NCBI GenBank assembly: GCA_019695345.1
Contig: JAIBAE010000002.1
Location: forward strand, 1-64,000
Direction: 5' to 3'
Origin: Bacteroidota bacterium
GTDB lineage: Bacteria > Bacteroidota > Ignavibacteria > Kapaibacteriales > NICIL-2
Length of the DNA stretch: 64,000 bases
A program made the translations under genes and the position numbers. The notes beneath the pieces were generated by a model. The model saw only the letters and a program-made list of their open reading frames with translations. It was not told where the DNA came from and did no database searches. Positions 30,029 through 53,907 of this stretch are shown one piece after another (within the stretch, counting starts at the first letter, position 1; each line of letters starts with the position of its first letter).

Positions 30029-30994
30029 TTATAATTCTAAATCAGGATATATTATTTCTTTGTTTCTAACCTTCTCAATCAGAATATTAGGTATTTCGTT
30101 ATCTTCTTCTATAAATTTCCAAAAATAAAGTTGTCCTAAAAGTTTTTCTTTATACAGCGGATCAAAGTCTACATTATATGGATTCACTTTATGGTTATAC
30201 TTTAGATACTTATATACATTTAGCCTTAATTCCCTTTTATAGTTTCGAGTTAACGATATATTCTTTTCCGTAACTGATAATCCTGTCACAATCTTTTTCT
30301 TGTGGTATCCTATAACTAACAATTCCTTTTTATTATTTACTATTAATCCTTCTTGTTCAACAATTGTTTTTATTAACTCTCTGCATTTTGTAGAAATATA
30401 CTCACCTGAAAAGAACAAGTCATCTGCATATCGAGAATAGGTCAGGTTTTCTTTTGTTGAAAGTCCGGATAATCTTTTGTCAAGCTTTGAGGTAACGATA
30501 TTACTTAGTAATGGACTTGTTGGTGCACCTTGTGGGATACCATTGTTGCATAGACATAACTTTGTTAACATGTAGCTAACACCATCTGAATACCCACAAT
30601 TTCGGAATACTCTTATTACTTTTTTGAATCCAATATTCTCAAAGAAATTCTCCAAGTCTATTTTGTAAAAGACTTTGGTTCCTATATGCCTCATTGCATT
30701 ATCTTTGATTGAAACTCCTGACTTATAGGAATAACAATAGTTATTACCATCAACATTACGTAGAATTTGTTCTAGTATAAATCTTTGTACTTTATATAAA
30801 TTAGGATATGGAGAATGTATAACTCTAACTCCATCTGAATTACGTTTTGGTAAGGAAAAAATACGGTAGTGATTTTCGCTACTAAAAATCATTCCCGCTA
30901 TTTTCTTTATTGGGATCTCTGTAGCTATTGATAAATCTCTAATTGATTTAATATTTGGGTAAATCTCGTTCAAAGTACCACGGTAATAGTTCAT
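30029..30994 (-). CDS. Retron reverse transcriptase
   Basis: A 321-aa RT that would copy the msd part of the adjacent RNA into branched msDNA. Seen in order: retron-specific motif X NAMRH (residues 99-103, NAxxH), catalytic Asp in YKIDLENFF (Asp113), GIPQGAPTSPLLSN (152-165), SRYADD with the catalytic pair Asp191-Asp192, and retron motif Y VTGL (236-239) in the thumb region. There is no maturase or endonuclease domain, so it is not a group II intron RT. The ATG at 30994 lies 25 bp past the a2 arm of the RNA. Length is typical for retron RTs. Confidence 0.94.
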   Translation of the reverse strand: MNYYRGTLNEIYPNIKSIRDLSIATEIPIKKIAGMIFSSENHYRIFSLPKRNSDGVRVIHSPYPNLYKVQRFILEQILRNVDGNNYCYSYKSGVSIKDNAMRHIGTKVFYKIDLENFFENIGFKKVIRVFRNCGYSDGVSYMLTKLCLCNNGIPQGAPTSPLLSNIVTSKLDKRLSGLSTKENLTYSRYADDLFFSGEYISTKCRELIKTIVEQEGLIVNNKKELLVIGYHKKKIVTGLSVTEKNISLTRNYKRELRLNVYKYLKYNHKVNPYNVDFDPLYKEKLLGQLYFWKFIEEDNEIPNILIEKVRNKEIIYPDLEL

Positions 30995-40072: not shown

Positions 40073-40080
40073 GTATCTTT
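40073..40080 (+). promoter_or_regulatory. Candidate -7 box for the ATP-grasp/SET gene
   Basis: TATCTTTG matches TAnnTTTG exactly and lies 31 bp before the chosen ATG at 40112. No clear -33 element was found. The same octamer occurs before the gene at 58964. Confidence 0.4.
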
Positions 40081-40111: not shown

Positions 40112-41521
40112 ATGAAGATTTGCGTTCTACAACCGGATTACAGCACAACCGATGTTGATTACAAAAACTACGACCCCGTACGGAACCTAAGCCAATGGCT
40201 ACCCGAACACGAAGTTGATTATGTACTTCTGAATAAACTTACCACCTACAAACAACTGCAAGCATTACGGCGCAAAGGGTACGATGTATTTGTAAACTTG
40301 TGTGAGGCGTATCTGGAGTGGGAAATACCATCGGTTGATGCAATACAATCGTTAGAGTTACTGAACCTTCCGTACACCGGTGCAACGCTATCGTTATACG
40401 ACCCTCCTAAACCGTTAATGAAGTATGTAGCATATTGCGCAGGGGTTGCCACACCAAAACATGTTGTAGTAACAACGCTTGCAGAACTTAACGTAACACA
40501 CCTAACGTTTCCGTTGTTTGTAAAACCTGCAAAAGCCGGAGACAGTTTAGGGATAGATGTACACTCTAAATGTACCAACGTAGAACAGGTTCAGAACAAA
40601 GTAAATGAACTACTTGAACAATACGATGAAGTGTTAATTGAAGAATACATTGCCGGGCGTGAATTTACCGTGTTAGTAGCAGCCGATGCAACAACTGCAA
40701 ACGGTTGTTATGCGTATAACCCGGTTGAGTACAACTTCGATGAACACGTTCACTTTAAAACGTACGACCACAAAACAAAAGACCTCCACCCCGACCGCAA
40801 TGTACCCGTTGCCGATGCTGAACTAAACAAGCGTTTACGCAACGCCGCAGCCGCAGTGTTTGCAATGTTTGAAGGCAAAGGATATGCGCGCATGGATTTC
40901 CGTATGGATGAAAACGGGATGTTGTATTTTCTGGAAGTAAACTTTGCGTGTTCGGTGTTTTATACAAACGGATACGAGGGCTCGGCTGATTACATTTTAC
41001 TGAACACACCAAATGGTCATGCCGATTTTCTGCAACGCATTATTGCCGATGGCATAACGCGCCACGCACAAAAACAAAAGCTCTACAACATCCGCGGCAA
41101 TGCTACCGATGGTTACGGTATTTATGCAACGCGTACAATTTCCAAAGGCACTATAATCTTTGCCGGCGAGGAACACATGCACCGCTTGGTAACACGCACT
41201 CATGTTGAACAGCATTGGAACGAACAACGCAAATTAGACTTTGCTCGGTACGCTGTTCCGCTAAGTACCGATGTGTATATAATGTGGGATACCGAGCCAA
41301 CAACATGGGCTCCGCAAAATCACAGCTGTGCCGCCAACACGGGCTACAGCGGCTTGCAGGTTATAGCATTGCGTGATATTCCCGCAGGCGAGGAGCTAAC
41401 ATTAGATTATCAAACCATAATTAACGATACCATGCACTCGTTTGAATGTAAATGCGGCGCGCCACAATGCAGAGGAGTTATAACAGGTAAAGCAGGAACA
41501 ACACTTACACAACAAGGATAG
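40112..41521 (+). CDS. ATP-grasp ligase-SET domain fusion protein
   Basis: A 469-aa protein from the ATG at 40112 (MKICVLQPDY). Residues 1-320 form a D-Ala-D-Ala-ligase-like ATP-grasp: YTGATLSLYDPPKPL, LFVKPAKAGDSLGI (ATP Lys138), VLIEEYIAGREFTVLV, YARMDFRMD and LYFLEVNF (metal Glu/Asn). Residues 328-455 are a SET lysine-methyltransferase domain: GYGIYATRTISKG, NHSC at 403-406, GEELTLDY at 426-433, then post-SET cysteines in CKCGAPQCRG. So one chain joins a carboxylate-amine ligase to a protein or small-molecule methyltransferase. The usual ligase NxNPG end is NFACSVFY, so the amine acceptor probably differs. It faces the 535-aa gene tail to tail. Confidence 0.87.
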   Translation: MKICVLQPDYSTTDVDYKNYDPVRNLSQWLPEHEVDYVLLNKLTTYKQLQALRRKGYDVFVNLCEAYLEWEIPSVDAIQSLELLNLPYTGATLSLYDPPKPLMKYVAYCAGVATPKHVVVTTLAELNVTHLTFPLFVKPAKAGDSLGIDVHSKCTNVEQVQNKVNELLEQYDEVLIEEYIAGREFTVLVAADATTANGCYAYNPVEYNFDEHVHFKTYDHKTKDLHPDRNVPVADAELNKRLRNAAAAVFAMFEGKGYARMDFRMDENGMLYFLEVNFACSVFYTNGYEGSADYILLNTPNGHADFLQRIIADGITRHAQKQKLYNIRGNATDGYGIYATRTISKGTIIFAGEEHMHRLVTRTHVEQHWNEQRKLDFARYAVPLSTDVYIMWDTEPTTWAPQNHSCAANTGYSGLQVIALRDIPAGEELTLDYQTIINDTMHSFECKCGAPQCRGVITGKAGTTLTQQG

Positions 41522-41670: not shown

Positions 41671-43278
41671 CTATGTAAACAACTCTAACAACAACTGCTG
41701 ATACGCGTACACATCTGTTGGTTTTGTGGTTACCATGCGCGTTAGCAATTGCAGTTTACCGGTATCGGTAATGTTGAGTGCCGCACGCCACAAGGCAACC
41801 TCGGTAAGTACACGTTGCTCGTTTGTAGTATGCGGGTACGCAATGTTGGTTAACGCCATAAACGAATTAACACATTCCTGTTCGGCGCGTTGGCGGTTAC
41901 TGTTGTACGTACGCTGAATCATCCGTGTAATGTGTGCAGTAATAGTTGCAATGTTGGGCGTAGTATGTTTATGGAGCTTGAATACAATTGCACTCTCGGT
42001 AAAACGAAGTAATGTTTTTTCCGGTGAACGATATGTTTTGTCCTTTTTGATTTTTTGAAACTCACTGTGTGCAAGCGTACGCAAGGTTGCATCAACCAGG
42101 CGAAACCCAAAGCGGTAGTAAAACCAAAACGCACCGGATGCAATGCCATCGGGGTTATCTTGTCCGTATTGGTATGGCTCAACTTCAAATGTGCCAATGT
42201 TAAACGCATGTTGATATACCCGCATCAACTGGCACATCACATACCCCGATTCCCCTCCCCGGTATGGTTCAAAAATGTTGATACCAAACTTTGCATTGCC
42301 ACCAAACACCCAGCTACCACCATACGCAGTGGGCAATCCGTTTTTAAACAGTGTATATCCAATATATTGTTCAAGCGGTAACTGACGTTGCGGAGTCATG
42401 CCATATATAGCAACCGAGATACCGCGCTCAAGTTGGTAATACCGCAACGACTGTTCATCCAGAAAGGTAACGGGGTCGGTTTCGCGGCTTGTTAGCGCCA
42501 TTGTGTTTTTAATAACCGTTAAAAGGTGTTGCTGCTGTGCGCTTGTTAATGCTGTGTGTTGCGGTAATGGTGTCTGCAACAATGCAACGTGGTCAAAGCG
42601 TTTGTATATTTCGCTGTGGTAAAAATGTGCACCAACAGGTATGCGGTTATACGCTCTCGAAAAACGTTCGGTGGTTGGTGTTATACGAATCATCATGCCC
42701 ATTGCATCAAACAACATATCTTTTACCAAAGGCATGGTATCTAATCTACTGCACTCATTCAGTAAAAATTCTAACCGCTGCTTGCGTGGAACGCGAAGTG
42801 CATGTAGTAGCTCATTATTATCAAGTCCGGCACTTGTTTCGGATTGCTCTACGGTTGGCAATGTACATTTTAAAATATCGTTTAACGTGTAGTACGCATC
42901 ACGAAATTCTTCTAAAGTAACCTTACAATCGGGGTGTGTGGTAAGCCACGTTGTGCAATCGTGCGAGTAGCGTGTAACAAACGGTGTAAACGGAAGTCCG
43001 GTGTTGTATAATGTTTGTGGTATTGCTGTTCTATTCTTTTTTAAAAACAAAGTAACCCGTTGTAGTTCTTGTTCGGCGCGGAACATGTGTATTACATTTG
43101 CGGGATATGCACATATAAATAACAATGTATCGCAATAGCGCTCTAACACAGGGCTTAACGGCAACGGCATTGTTGCAAGTGTTTGCAAAAGGTGTAACAG
43201 TTTATCGTTACTAACTTCATCAAATTGTGTTGAGAGTTTTCTTAGTGTGGAAACACGGGCATTAAATCCGGCGCTCAT
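41671..43278 (-). CDS. 535-aa protein of unknown function
   Basis: A cytosolic-looking protein with no signal peptide or TM. The first 220 residues are mostly helical. The middle (residues about 310-400: GGSWVFGGNAKFGINIFEPY, RGGESGYVMCQLMRVYQHAF, PDGIASGAFWFYYRFGFRLVD) has a glycine-rich strand-loop-helix run that could be an acyl-CoA-type GNAT core, though I cannot confirm it. The last 130 residues are helical. It converges with the ATP-grasp/SET gene with a 150-bp gap; whether the two act together is unknown. Confidence 0.75.
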   Translation of the reverse strand: MSAGFNARVSTLRKLSTQFDEVSNDKLLHLLQTLATMPLPLSPVLERYCDTLLFICAYPANVIHMFRAEQELQRVTLFLKKNRTAIPQTLYNTGLPFTPFVTRYSHDCTTWLTTHPDCKVTLEEFRDAYYTLNDILKCTLPTVEQSETSAGLDNNELLHALRVPRKQRLEFLLNECSRLDTMPLVKDMLFDAMGMMIRITPTTERFSRAYNRIPVGAHFYHSEIYKRFDHVALLQTPLPQHTALTSAQQQHLLTVIKNTMALTSRETDPVTFLDEQSLRYYQLERGISVAIYGMTPQRQLPLEQYIGYTLFKNGLPTAYGGSWVFGGNAKFGINIFEPYRGGESGYVMCQLMRVYQHAFNIGTFEVEPYQYGQDNPDGIASGAFWFYYRFGFRLVDATLRTLAHSEFQKIKKDKTYRSPEKTLLRFTESAIVFKLHKHTTPNIATITAHITRMIQRTYNSNRQRAEQECVNSFMALTNIAYPHTTNEQRVLTEVALWRAALNITDTGKLQLLTRMVTTKPTDVYAYQQLLLELFT

Positions 43279-43376
43279 AAGGTAGTGTAATCAGGTTTTG
43301 GATAAACATATATGTATGTGCATGTAATTTTTTCCAAACATAGAGAATACTACACAGCATACAAAATGAATCATGG

Positions 43377-43445
43377 TTTTGCTATCGCAGGACGGCACCC
43401 GGCGTACAACTTCCAAACATCGTTACCCTGCCGGAGAGAAGCAAC
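43377..43445 (+). repeat. R1 dispersed repeat, copy 14
   Basis: TTTTGCTATCGCAGGACGGCACCC then CTGCCGGAGAGAAGC. It lies inside the upstream open extension of the YfiT-like gene, which argues against the longer start. Confidence 0.72.
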
Positions 43446-43537
43446 GTTTCTCTCCGCCGCATGATGTGTATTTTTGTGTACACAATCGGGGCGGTCACGC
43501 GGTAGCAACATATTATTACACACTATTACATACTTTC

Positions 43538-44086
43538 ATGAACATCTATCAAACAGAACTTCAGCAACTCCAATATCCCATAGGCAAGTATATAACACCT
43601 GCCGCGTACACAGCAGAATCCATGAACCAATGGATGGAAGTAATACGAGACACGCCGCAACAGCTAACAACTCTTGTAGCACATCTTACCGATGAACAAC
43701 TATCAACGCCGTACCGTCCCGGTGGCTGGACGCTGCGCCAATTAGTGCATCACATTGCCGATAGCCATATCAATGCCTACTCACGGTTCCGCTTTGCATT
43801 AACCGAAGACGCACCTACAATCAAACCTTACGCGCAAGAACATTGGGCTACGCTTTACGATGCCGAGTTTGGCGACATTCAACTTTCTCTGCAACTTGTT
43901 ACGGCACTTCATGCGCGGTGGTATTTGTTGGTAACACATCTTACCGAATCTCAATGGAATCGCACCTACATTCACCCCGATTTCCAAGAGCCAATCCAAC
44001 TCCGCGAGGCGCTTGCAATGTACGCGTGGCATTCGTTGCATCACCTTCAGCAACTACGTAATCTTATAGAACACAAGCAATGGTAG
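43538..44086 (+). CDS. YfiT/BstA-like DinB-fold metal-dependent transferase
   Basis: The start at 43538 (MNIYQTELQQLQYPIG) matches the usual YfiT N-terminus; the frame extends to 43373 through a repeat and is rejected. The 182-aa product has YTAESMNQWMEVI, RPGGWTLRQLVHHIADSHINAYSRFRFALTED and AMYAWHSLHHLQQLR. The histidines of LVHHIADSH and WHSLHHL are the metal ligands in this family, whose members transfer bacillithiol or other thiols to electrophiles. It is the second DinB-fold gene in the window, after 8685-9182. R1 starts 3 bp after the stop. Confidence 0.9.
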   Translation: MNIYQTELQQLQYPIGKYITPAAYTAESMNQWMEVIRDTPQQLTTLVAHLTDEQLSTPYRPGGWTLRQLVHHIADSHINAYSRFRFALTEDAPTIKPYAQEHWATLYDAEFGDIQLSLQLVTALHARWYLLVTHLTESQWNRTYIHPDFQEPIQLREALAMYAWHSLHHLQQLRNLIEHKQW

Positions 44087-45016: not shown

Positions 45017-45087
45017 CACGATAACCGTTGTTGCATAGTTGAGATTCTTCCCCACAGAGTGTGGTAATACCATTGTGCTTATCGCAG
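45017..45087 (-). repeat. R1 dispersed repeat, copy 17 (partial)
   Basis: Only the second half and tail are clear: GGGGAAGAATCTCAACTATG and CAACAACGGTTATCGTG on the minus strand, shared with copy 16. It overlaps the last codons of the RNA ligase gene. Confidence 0.6.
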
Positions 45088-45840
45088 AGTCCGTTCATAA
45101 TCTTCAAATCTAACTTTAACAATTTTTGTCCGATTTTCATTTCTTAAAACAACACCTTCCGATCTCTTTATAGCACTTTCGGACAAAGCAACATTTGTAT
45201 ATGGTATATACTTTCTCAGATTCTCTAAAACAACTTTATGAGACATATCGCCCAGGTCAAATTCAATTAACGGTACTAAGTCGAAATTTGGAAATTGGTT
45301 TTGTATTTCAGTCCGCGTAAGAAAATTCTGACCATAGATAATTCCATCTTCGGTTTCTCGTTCACGCCATTTTGAAATATCGTGTTGCGACATTTCCAGT
45401 ATTGACAAATCGTTGTAAACAGCAACATCAAAAACACGGAAACCATTTTTATCTTGCCCATACCATTTGGAATTAGCCGATGTTTTTCCGCCATAAAACT
45501 CGCCATAAATCACAGTAAACTTTTCAGGTTGTGGAACTATAATATTTAATTCTTGTAGTCCATCAACAATACCTTGCGCAGTGTCAAAATATAAGTCGTG
45601 TGAATGATGTAAAATAAACTCCCTTGCACCAATAAGATATTCAGAACCATAACATATTATTCTTGCGTTAGTTCCATCAATCTTTTCCGTTGCATACATT
45701 TTCTCGTTTTGAATTGGCGTAGTTAACTCATTTTTTAAGCGTCCCTTTTCGCCTAATTGATGAAGTGTAAGTATTGATGGATACTTTGTAAGAGTGTTAA
45801 TCTTCTCTTTACCAAATTTTGATATTAAATCTCTTATCAT
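45079..45840 (-). CDS. RNA ligase (T4 Rnl2-like nucleotidyltransferase)
   Basis: A 253-aa ligase that seals RNA ends through an enzyme-AMP intermediate. Nucleotidyltransferase motifs in order: I TEKIDGTNARI (catalytic Lys near residue 53), III/IIIa VIYGEFYGG and GFRVFDVAV, IV RSEGVVLRNE, V TKIVKVRFEDY. No C-terminal extra domain follows. Such ligases repair damaged tRNA or other RNA. It is isolated, converging with the 201-aa membrane protein, and ends inside a partial R1. No partner phosphatase or kinase is visible nearby. Confidence 0.9.
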   Translation of the reverse strand: MIRDLISKFGKEKINTLTKYPSILTLHQLGEKGRLKNELTTPIQNEKMYATEKIDGTNARIICYGSEYLIGAREFILHHSHDLYFDTAQGIVDGLQELNIIVPQPEKFTVIYGEFYGGKTSANSKWYGQDKNGFRVFDVAVYNDLSILEMSQHDISKWRERETEDGIIYGQNFLTRTEIQNQFPNFDLVPLIEFDLGDMSHKVVLENLRKYIPYTNVALSESAIKRSEGVVLRNENRTKIVKVRFEDYERTLR

Positions 45841-52056: not shown

Positions 52057-53907
52057 CTATAACTCTATAACTACTTTCTTTATCTCGTATGACTTGTCGT
52101 CCTTCTTAGATAGAATATCTGCTTTTAAGAGATCTCCACAAATTTTCCTCACCTTACGTCCTAAACTCTCATAAGTTGTAGGTTCAATTTCTTTACCGTG
52201 AAGTTGAGAATACAACTCAGGCGTAATTACATTAGGTTTGATTGATTGATTGTTATAATGATTATACCTGTAAACAATATTTAGAACTCGTTTGTGTGCA
52301 TCATCCAATCCAGTTAATGGTTTTCCTGTTTGCTCTTCGATTTGTTTGGTAAAATCAACTAAAGTTAACTCCTTATCCAAAACATAAACAGGAGTTTGTT
52401 CTGAACTTGCAGAAGGGTGTTCTAAGACAAGTCCTGATTGTTTTAAGTCAGAAAGAACATCCAAGTGATTATTGCTCGGACTTAATAAAATTGTGTACCG
52501 GCGTTTTTGATTAAGTCTTTCTGATTTAAGCAAGTACGCTAAAACTAATTTATGCTCTTGGGTTATTTTACCCTCAAGTCGCTCATGTAAATATCCGTTA
52601 AAGGAGTTCATCCATCTCAGTGTTTCATCGTCCATCAGTTTGCCAGATGGAATGACCAAAGAAATAGTGTCTGGAACTGATAAGTCATAATAGGGAACGT
52701 CGATTTGATTTTCCAGACAAACACTAACTAATGTTGCCATGCCTATTCCCTGACTTTCAATCTTGTCAAATGCTTTTAGAACATTCGCAAGTTTTGGGTT
52801 TTTTGTCTCTGGAACTCCAGATATTATTCGTCTTATTTCATTTTTGGTTGAAGTGTCAGTTATCAACATCTTTTGCTTAAAACTGCCAGGATTTTTGATT
52901 TCAATACTTTCTCCAGGATTAATTTTGATAGTGATAAATTTATTCGCGATGTAATCCCTATGAGCAAAAGCGTTGTTTACTACTTCTCGGACTAACTTTT
53001 CAGGGAACTCTGGTTCGCTTCTACCACCGCCAATGTAGCTCCTTCCAACTTTGATATGTCCCCAAACAAATGAGAAAGCATCATCCATCAAATTAATTAC
53101 ATCGTTCTGAGAAATTCTTTTATCTCGTCCAATGTCATTTCCTGTTTCAAAATAGCAATCAACCTCCGCTCTGTATTCAAGATACTGAAACGGCTCTTTG
53201 CCAAATAATAGAAGTCCGAGAACAGTTACAGCACCTTCTGAATTTATACAGTAGCGTCTTGCAAGGAAATCAGCTGCATCTTGAAGGTCTTTCTTAACAG
53301 TTTCCTTTTTACCGGTAGTGTTTATTCTAACAATAAATTGATTGATTTTATCAATATCCAAATCATATATTGTTGCCTTTGCAACTGGGCTAATCTCTTT
53401 TGAATACTCCAACTCAGCTTTGTATTCCCTATGTTGAATAAGCCTTGACTGAGGGATAACCTTATCTTGAGTTAATACACGCTCATAATAAACACCATCA
53501 AACTTCAAATATTTTAGATCTTCACTTAAAGGATGTACTGTTAAAATGGCTAATGTTTTTCCATGAACAGTTCTGTAATCAAAGTCTATGTTTTGAGATA
53601 AATCTGGCAGCACATCGTTGTCATTTCTGAAAAACTTACTTCTAAGCTCTATAAGTCGTCCCTCATTGTTTCTGTCGAAACCCGTAAAATTATATTTCTT
53701 ATTTCGTTCCCTAATACCACAAATTACATAGCCACCGTTGGTGTTAAGATAAGCACATACTGTTTCTTTGAGTGAAGTCCATTCGTTGCCAGATGAAAGG
53801 TCTTTCAGTTCAACAATAGAATCCTCATTATCTTGAAATTGTCCAGTCAAGAGAGTGGTCTCAATTCGTGAAATAGTTTTATTTAGTAAATCGTTTTTGT
53901 CTGTCAT
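52057..53907 (-). CDS. AlbA/Schlafen-type ATP-binding protein, putative regulator
   Basis: A 616-aa protein. The N-terminal AlbA_2/Schlafen domain (residues about 25-140) has SIVELKDLSSGNEWTSLKETV and AYLNTNGGYVICGIRE, the usual ExK...E-x-xAxxNxxGGxxxxG pattern. Around residues 300-400 is a HATPase_c_4-like segment with EKLVREVVNNAFAHRDY and SQGIGMATLVSVCLEN. The remainder is winged-helix-like. Members are annotated as regulators, or sit in defence loci. Base composition is AT-rich relative to neighbours, and it stands alone. Confidence 0.85.
   Translation of the reverse strand: MTDKNDLLNKTISRIETTLLTGQFQDNEDSIVELKDLSSGNEWTSLKETVCAYLNTNGGYVICGIRERNKKYNFTGFDRNNEGRLIELRSKFFRNDNDVLPDLSQNIDFDYRTVHGKTLAILTVHPLSEDLKYLKFDGVYYERVLTQDKVIPQSRLIQHREYKAELEYSKEISPVAKATIYDLDIDKINQFIVRINTTGKKETVKKDLQDAADFLARRYCINSEGAVTVLGLLLFGKEPFQYLEYRAEVDCYFETGNDIGRDKRISQNDVINLMDDAFSFVWGHIKVGRSYIGGGRSEPEFPEKLVREVVNNAFAHRDYIANKFITIKINPGESIEIKNPGSFKQKMLITDTSTKNEIRRIISGVPETKNPKLANVLKAFDKIESQGIGMATLVSVCLENQIDVPYYDLSVPDTISLVIPSGKLMDDETLRWMNSFNGYLHERLEGKITQEHKLVLAYLLKSERLNQKRRYTILLSPSNNHLDVLSDLKQSGLVLEHPSASSEQTPVYVLDKELTLVDFTKQIEEQTGKPLTGLDDAHKRVLNIVYRYNHYNNQSIKPNVITPELYSQLHGKEIEPTTYESLGRKVRKICGDLLKADILSKKDDKSYEIKKVVIEL

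Follow-up and report, generated by a model that had tools for sequence, protein, structure and literature searches.

The ATP-grasp–SET fusion gene

The 64,000 nt stretch of DNA analysed here (the window), from a member of the Bacteroidota, contains a gene in which an ATP-grasp ligase and a SET-domain methyltransferase are joined in one chain, which raises the question of what such an enzyme would make. The initial annotation had described a 469-aa chain with a D-Ala-D-Ala ligase (Ddl)-like ATP-grasp half (here AG2) and a full SET and post-SET half (SET2), and this description was borne out by the open reading frame, by Pfam and by the recurrence of the architecture in homologs (Table 1). Both Pfam matches were above the gathering score (Dala_Dala_lig_C, PF07478, 6.8e-24, residues 127–277; SET, PF00856, 2e-11, residues 334–434), and the motifs quoted at the time (NHSC, GEELTLDY, CKCGAPQCRG and NFACSVFY) were all found in the translation. 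A TTG at 40079 is a possible earlier start; the homologs start at the ATG. AlphaFold2 gave a model from 35 homologs with a mean pLDDT of 88.7 and a pTM of 0.81, with the ligase half closest to Ddl structures by Foldseek (E = 2e-19). Since the same two-domain chain recurs in other genomes, the fusion is not a chance reading frame or an assembly artefact.

Table 1. Position of the fusion gene and its parts in the window
Feature	Position	Strand	Description
AG2-SET2 fusion gene, 469 aa	40112..41521	+	ATG at 40112, stop ends at 41521; architecture shared by 43 homologous loci
ATP-grasp half, residues ~1-325	40112..41086	+	D-Ala-D-Ala-ligase-like fold; ATP/Mg residues all present; acceptor end replaced
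Altered acceptor segment FACSVFYTNGYEGSAD, residues 278-294	40943..40993	+	From the alignment of homologs
SET and post-SET half, residues ~326-469	41087..41521	+	GYG 334-336, NHSC 403-406, GEELTLDY with Tyr433, Cys 446/448/453

A fusion without its key Lys and Glu residues or its SET Tyr would be a dead enzyme, and we therefore checked these positions in an alignment of 35 homologs. Residues K104, K138, E177, R260, D262 and N277 of the ligase half were invariant, with position 275 being Glu in 34 sequences and Asp in one, and G336, N403, H404, C406, Y433, C446, C448 and C453 were invariant in the SET half. The chain thus retains its key ligase and SET residues, including the GxG, NHSC and catalytic Tyr of SET-domain methyltransferases, and shows none of the losses expected of a dead enzyme.

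Distribution of the fusion

A search for the same fusion and its gene neighbours showed that it recurs widely, and identified SET1 and AG1 as operon partners. One scan of genome_contigs returned 43 loci at 50–60% identity (two cut by contig ends), all but one of which were labelled Bacteroidota-type (Cyclobacteriaceae, Chitinophagaceae, Saprospiraceae and others), and the fusion was present in >40 genomes of this phylum. Green sulfur bacteria carried a divergent form (type 2, 37–39% identity), as did two further lineages. Within a sample of 396 genomes of the phylum, five contained the type 1 fusion and 11 the type 2 fusion; nine of these 11 belong to one genus, and the FMO protein (PF02327), a marker of green sulfur bacteria, was found in 8/8 genomes tested. 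A full-operon record labelled as the actinobacterium 'Williamsia' was rejected as a case of transfer, as the genome is placed by the search tool in the window's own phylum and the same contig positions were matched.

The fusion was detected in none of 200 sampled Bacillota genomes and in none of the viral_contigs, while plasmids gave ATP-grasp matches only, none of them covering 80% of the query. Some of the best plasmid ATP-grasps adjoin diaminopropionate-synthesis genes (Thioflavicoccus) or are located on rhizobial plasmids, and belong to a different clade of the ATP-grasp tree. On plasmid pTHIMO01 of Thioflavicoccus mobilis (L068, 1467–6948), the related stand-alone ATP-grasp is accompanied by SbnA, ornithine cyclodeaminase and DABA transaminase genes, with a KamA radical SAM gene nearby, and this cluster is possibly another dipeptide route.

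A cassette of two ligases and two methyltransferases

In the conserved operon the genes are ordered SET1 (~165 aa), AG1 (~370 aa, a second Ddl-like ATP-grasp) and fusion, and in most loci they are 0–80 bp apart or overlap by 1–4 bp. AG1 is directly upstream of the fusion in most loci, and is preceded by SET1 in about half. The AG1 stop codon and the fusion start codon overlap by one base (TAATG) in a sister genome (G001). The genome from which the window comes has neither partner beside the fusion; its SET1 and AG1 adjoin each other on contig C18 (stop/start overlap ATGA).

Linkage is matched by co-inheritance. In the 396-genome sample, AG1 was present in 5/5 genomes with a type 1 fusion and in 0/391 others, the type 2 green sulfur genomes included. 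Of the 16 fusion genomes 14 carried SET1, as did one other genome of the sample, with a nominal hypergeometric p of ~1e-22 that ignores kinship. As the sampled genomes are related, the unlinked cases form the stronger argument: SET1 was located elsewhere in 16 of 18 further genomes that lack it beside the fusion (15 single matches and one split by a frameshift). It was not detected in the genomes of L056 and L063, the other two of these 18, nor in G217 and G345, and a Lachnospiraceae control gave no match. The neighbours of unlinked SET1 genes (aconitase, GTP cyclohydrolase, NUDIX) were housekeeping genes, with nothing recurrent that looked biosynthetic.

The unit usually comprises two ligases and two methyltransferases, and no conserved substrate-protein gene was found among the neighbours examined. 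An amidase gene upstream of the fusion in 10 loci, as well as other recurrent neighbours, were not counted as parts of the cassette because they are on the opposite strand. A role in anti-phage defence was also considered and rejected, since neither the fusion nor AG1 nor SET1 matched any PADLOC model.

Transporter genes adjoin the fusion in a minority of loci. In green sulfur bacteria SET1 is followed by the fusion, then by a complete ABC exporter and lastly by a SET protein of 118 aa, and in eight subtype 1 loci (L036, L040, L050, L051, L052, L053, L059 and L061) the fusion is followed on the same strand by a PF13748 protein with six transmembrane segments. A PF13748 protein is likewise encoded downstream on the same strand in G121 and G040, and on the opposite strand in L056. 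Because the ABC exporter and PF13748 are transporter-type membrane proteins beside the cassette, their presence suggests that the product is exported in these lineages. In the region 5041–13099 of L080 (G217), a type 2 fusion lies beside genes for gamma-glutamyltransferase-like, N-formylglutamate amidohydrolase, MATCAP-family and glutathione-synthetase-like ATP-grasp proteins.

The ligase half is Ddl-like with a replaced acceptor end

The fusion fits the Ddl-like branch of the ATP-grasp superfamily by its fold and its set of Lys, Lys, Glu, Arg, Asp, Glu and Asn residues, and VanA-type enzymes were among its best sequence matches. With Ddl and VanA-type ligases it shares the fold, the ATP-binding lysines, the catalytic Arg and the Asp/Glu/Asn metal ligands, and R260/D262/E275/N277 are spaced exactly as R255/D257/E270/N272 are in E. 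coli DdlB. It differs from them in the absence of the N-terminal motifs of Ddl, in a replaced acceptor loop, in forming a separate clade and in scoring far below the curated cut-offs, as the fusion reached 94.3 bits against a TIGR01205 cut-off of 245.65, and AG1 at most 90.1 bits against a Ddl cut-off of 243 (NCBIfam).

The window's genome carries a separate, true Ddl of its own, which has the HGxxGEDG pattern, a PROSITE signature of Ddl; this was present in 0/35 fusions and 0/28 AG1 sequences. Nor did the alignment show an equivalent of the N-terminal GGxSxER of Ddl (GGISPER in the genome's own enzyme) in either AG2 or AG1. At the acceptor end, the aligned segments read EVNTLPGMTATSLVP in the genome's own Ddl, EVNFACSVFYTNGYEGSAD in the fusion and EVNAQCGISEDEDFTS in AG1, so where Ddl has NTLPGMT...SLVP, the fusion has NFxCSxFY...GSAD. 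The latter is the form of subtype 1, with NPNC(G/A)xFY...GSAD in subtype 2, and the altered ligase end (NFACSVFY) to which the initial annotation drew attention is thus real and kept across the fusion homologs. When a tree was built that included this Ddl and further ones, the two cassette ligases grouped in a single clade (support 100/99), within which AG1 and AG2 are sister branches with good support of their own; they are therefore old paralogs distinct from true Ddl.

SET1 resembles a small-molecule methyltransferase

BurB of Burkholderia thailandensis is a SET methionine S-methyltransferase acting on free methionine (PDB 9L4T, 9L4V; PMC12542666), and together with its Streptomyces counterpart MSMT was the only SET-type enzyme acting on a free metabolite that we found in the literature (PMC12542666). 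As judged by sequence and predicted fold, SET1 is closest to BurB and not to histone enzymes: BurB was the best PDB match of the SET1 profile (1.6e-18, versus 4.8e-8 for the best histone enzyme) and the best fold match of the SET1 model (1.1e-10, versus 5.2e-7 for histone SETs). BurB was also the best SET match of the fusion in sequence searches, with the SET2 half scoring 46.6 bits against BurB and 37.8 bits against histone SETs as a single sequence, whereas the SET2 profile was nearly equidistant (BurB 49.6 bits, MLL1 46.8 bits), so that SET2 is intermediate and may act on a protein. A preference for BurB is not common to all bacterial SET proteins, since a stand-alone generic SET of the same genome (contig C152, L021 5691–6182) matched MLL1 at 1.1e-21 with BurB outside the top 60. 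This generic SET is unlike the cassette SETs and may be a protein methyltransferase. A tree separated generic SET and KMT2D from SET1, SET2, SET3 and BurB (100/95), and is taken as supporting only because of its long branches.

SET1 shares T73, Q75, H81, P85, E128, G150 and A151 with BurB, and SET2 lacks most of these SET1/BurB-specific residues. The Ser88 of BurB is replaced by Leu in all 19 SET1 sequences and by Trp in SET2, and the positions of BurB Met132 and Arg133 differ in SET1. Given the loss of Ser88 and Met132 from the pocket, methionine itself is probably not the substrate, although pocket residues are weak evidence on this point because BurB binds methionine via its main chain. The shared SET and post-SET Cys fold aside, BurB also differs in being a stand-alone enzyme of the DMSP/malleicyprol pathway with no fused ligase.

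What the cassette may produce

The known Ddl-like ATP-grasps convert a free acid to an acyl phosphate, which is then joined to a free amine, and the known members of this subfamily join free amino or hydroxy acids. The fusion is co-inherited with a second SET and often with a second ligase, and it is therefore more likely to serve in making a small, methylated, peptide-like compound than in modifying histone-like proteins. Likewise, two ligases and two methyltransferases inherited together, with no gene for a substrate protein recurring near them, fit a short metabolite pathway best. We thus propose, with a probability of roughly 60%, that the fusion works within a small biosynthetic cassette for a methylated, non-ribosomal peptide-like small molecule. 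Of the readings considered, the best supported is the one suggested in the initial annotation, namely production and methylation of a peptide or amino acid conjugate, given the operon, the co-inheritance, the transporters and the kinship with BurB; its picture of one ligase and one methyltransferase gave way to one with usually two of each.

In such a route, AG1 would convert a carboxylate, such as that of an amino acid, to the acyl phosphate and couple it with an amine, yielding a dipeptide-like conjugate, and the AG2 half of the fusion would carry out a second ligation with an acceptor other than D-Ala. SET1 and SET2 may transfer methyl groups from SAM to side-chain N or S atoms, either before ligation, on the building blocks, or afterwards, on the product; in the fusion, a single protein could then both ligate and methylate the same intermediate. 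Some lineages may then release the product via the ABC exporter (green sulfur bacteria) or the PF13748 protein (Bacteroidota). In green sulfur bacteria, which lack AG1, only one ligation and at most three SET reactions would be expected. The mycosporine enzymes MysC and MysD are a known two-ligase small-molecule route with Ddl-like ATP-grasps, in which successive ligations also build a small amino-acid conjugate; they differ from the cassette in having no SET enzymes and another core chemistry.

Alternatively, the target could be a protein, to which the ATP-grasp would attach an amino acid in the manner of RimK and TTL and whose lysines the SET domains would methylate. Protein lysine is the classic SET target, SET2 keeps NHSC, the catalytic Tyr and the post-SET Cys residues with an MLL1 score almost equal to that for BurB, and TTL-like and SET-like domains co-occur in eukaryotic TTLL12 (PMC3520985). 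We nevertheless consider this fairly unlikely, as the ATP-grasp is Ddl-like and not RimK- or TTL-like, SET1 is BurB-like by profile and model, and the cassette lacks a conserved substrate-protein gene. TTLL12 itself combines an N-terminal SET-like and a C-terminal TTL domain, both reported to lack critical residues and in vitro activity (PMC3520985). It resembles the fusion in that one chain combines domains of the SET and ATP-grasp types, but the domain order is reversed, its ATP-grasp is TTL and not Ddl, and its SET is related to SETD3/4/6; with its ATP-grasp first and Ddl-matching, the fusion falls outside the TTLL12 family, and the two are likely of independent origin. In the open-access literature, the terms ATP-grasp and SET met meaningfully only in TTLL12, a further co-occurrence being unrelated, and no description of the present architecture was found; open-access reviews of SET proteins in bacteria, in which Chlorobium is named, did not mention a ligase.

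Two further explanations were weighed. The Ddl-like fold and the VanA-type matches could point to AG1 and AG2 making an altered, methylated terminus or side chain of a peptidoglycan precursor, but all curated Ddl and Van models scored far below their cut-off (94 versus 246 bits), both ligases lack GGxSxER and HGxxGEDG, the two motifs present in the true Ddl of this genome, and cell-wall genes such as mur or van do not recur near the fusion, which makes such an envelope role very improbable. Retention of the methylated dipeptide in the cell, as an osmolyte or metal-binding metabolite, is also quite improbable. It has a precedent in N-acetylglutaminylglutamine amide synthesis, where an acetyltransferase–ATP-grasp fusion, a comparable joining of tailoring enzyme and ligase, serves to make a dipeptide solute, and most loci have no adjacent exporter; other lineages do, however, have the ABC exporter or PF13748 beside the cassette, and no osmotic or metal genes were found among the recurrent neighbours.

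A broader version of the proposed cassette, a ligase–methyltransferase pathway class of Bacteroidota and green sulfur bacteria in which SET enzymes tailor small molecules together with Ddl-derived ligases and the methylated peptide is exported, stands at about even odds. If correct, small-molecule SET chemistry would be a wider theme, with two or three SET domains combined with one or two Ddl-derived ligases, and an undiscovered metabolite would be expected in common uncultured Bacteroidota. A bacterial 'SET domain protein' should not automatically be regarded as a chromatin or protein methyltransferase. The cassette is directly testable, as the green sulfur bacteria with the second type include cultured strains.

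Other genes in the window

The fusion is adjoined by a convergent gene for a 535-aa protein (41671–43278, minus strand) that matched no Pfam, NCBIfam or PADLOC family, which is followed by a YfiT-type bacillithiol transferase (43373–44086, plus strand; PRK13291, 224 bits against an NCBIfam cut-off of 160) and an RNA_ligase family protein (45079–45840, minus strand; PF09414, 6.5e-16). A Schlafen/AlbA_2 domain protein is encoded at 52057–53907 (minus strand), with a weak match to Argonaute-associated models of PADLOC. About 9 kb upstream of the fusion there may be a retron-type element, since the 321-aa reverse transcriptase encoded there (30029–30994, minus strand) has RT_III-A as its best PADLOC model (329 bits).
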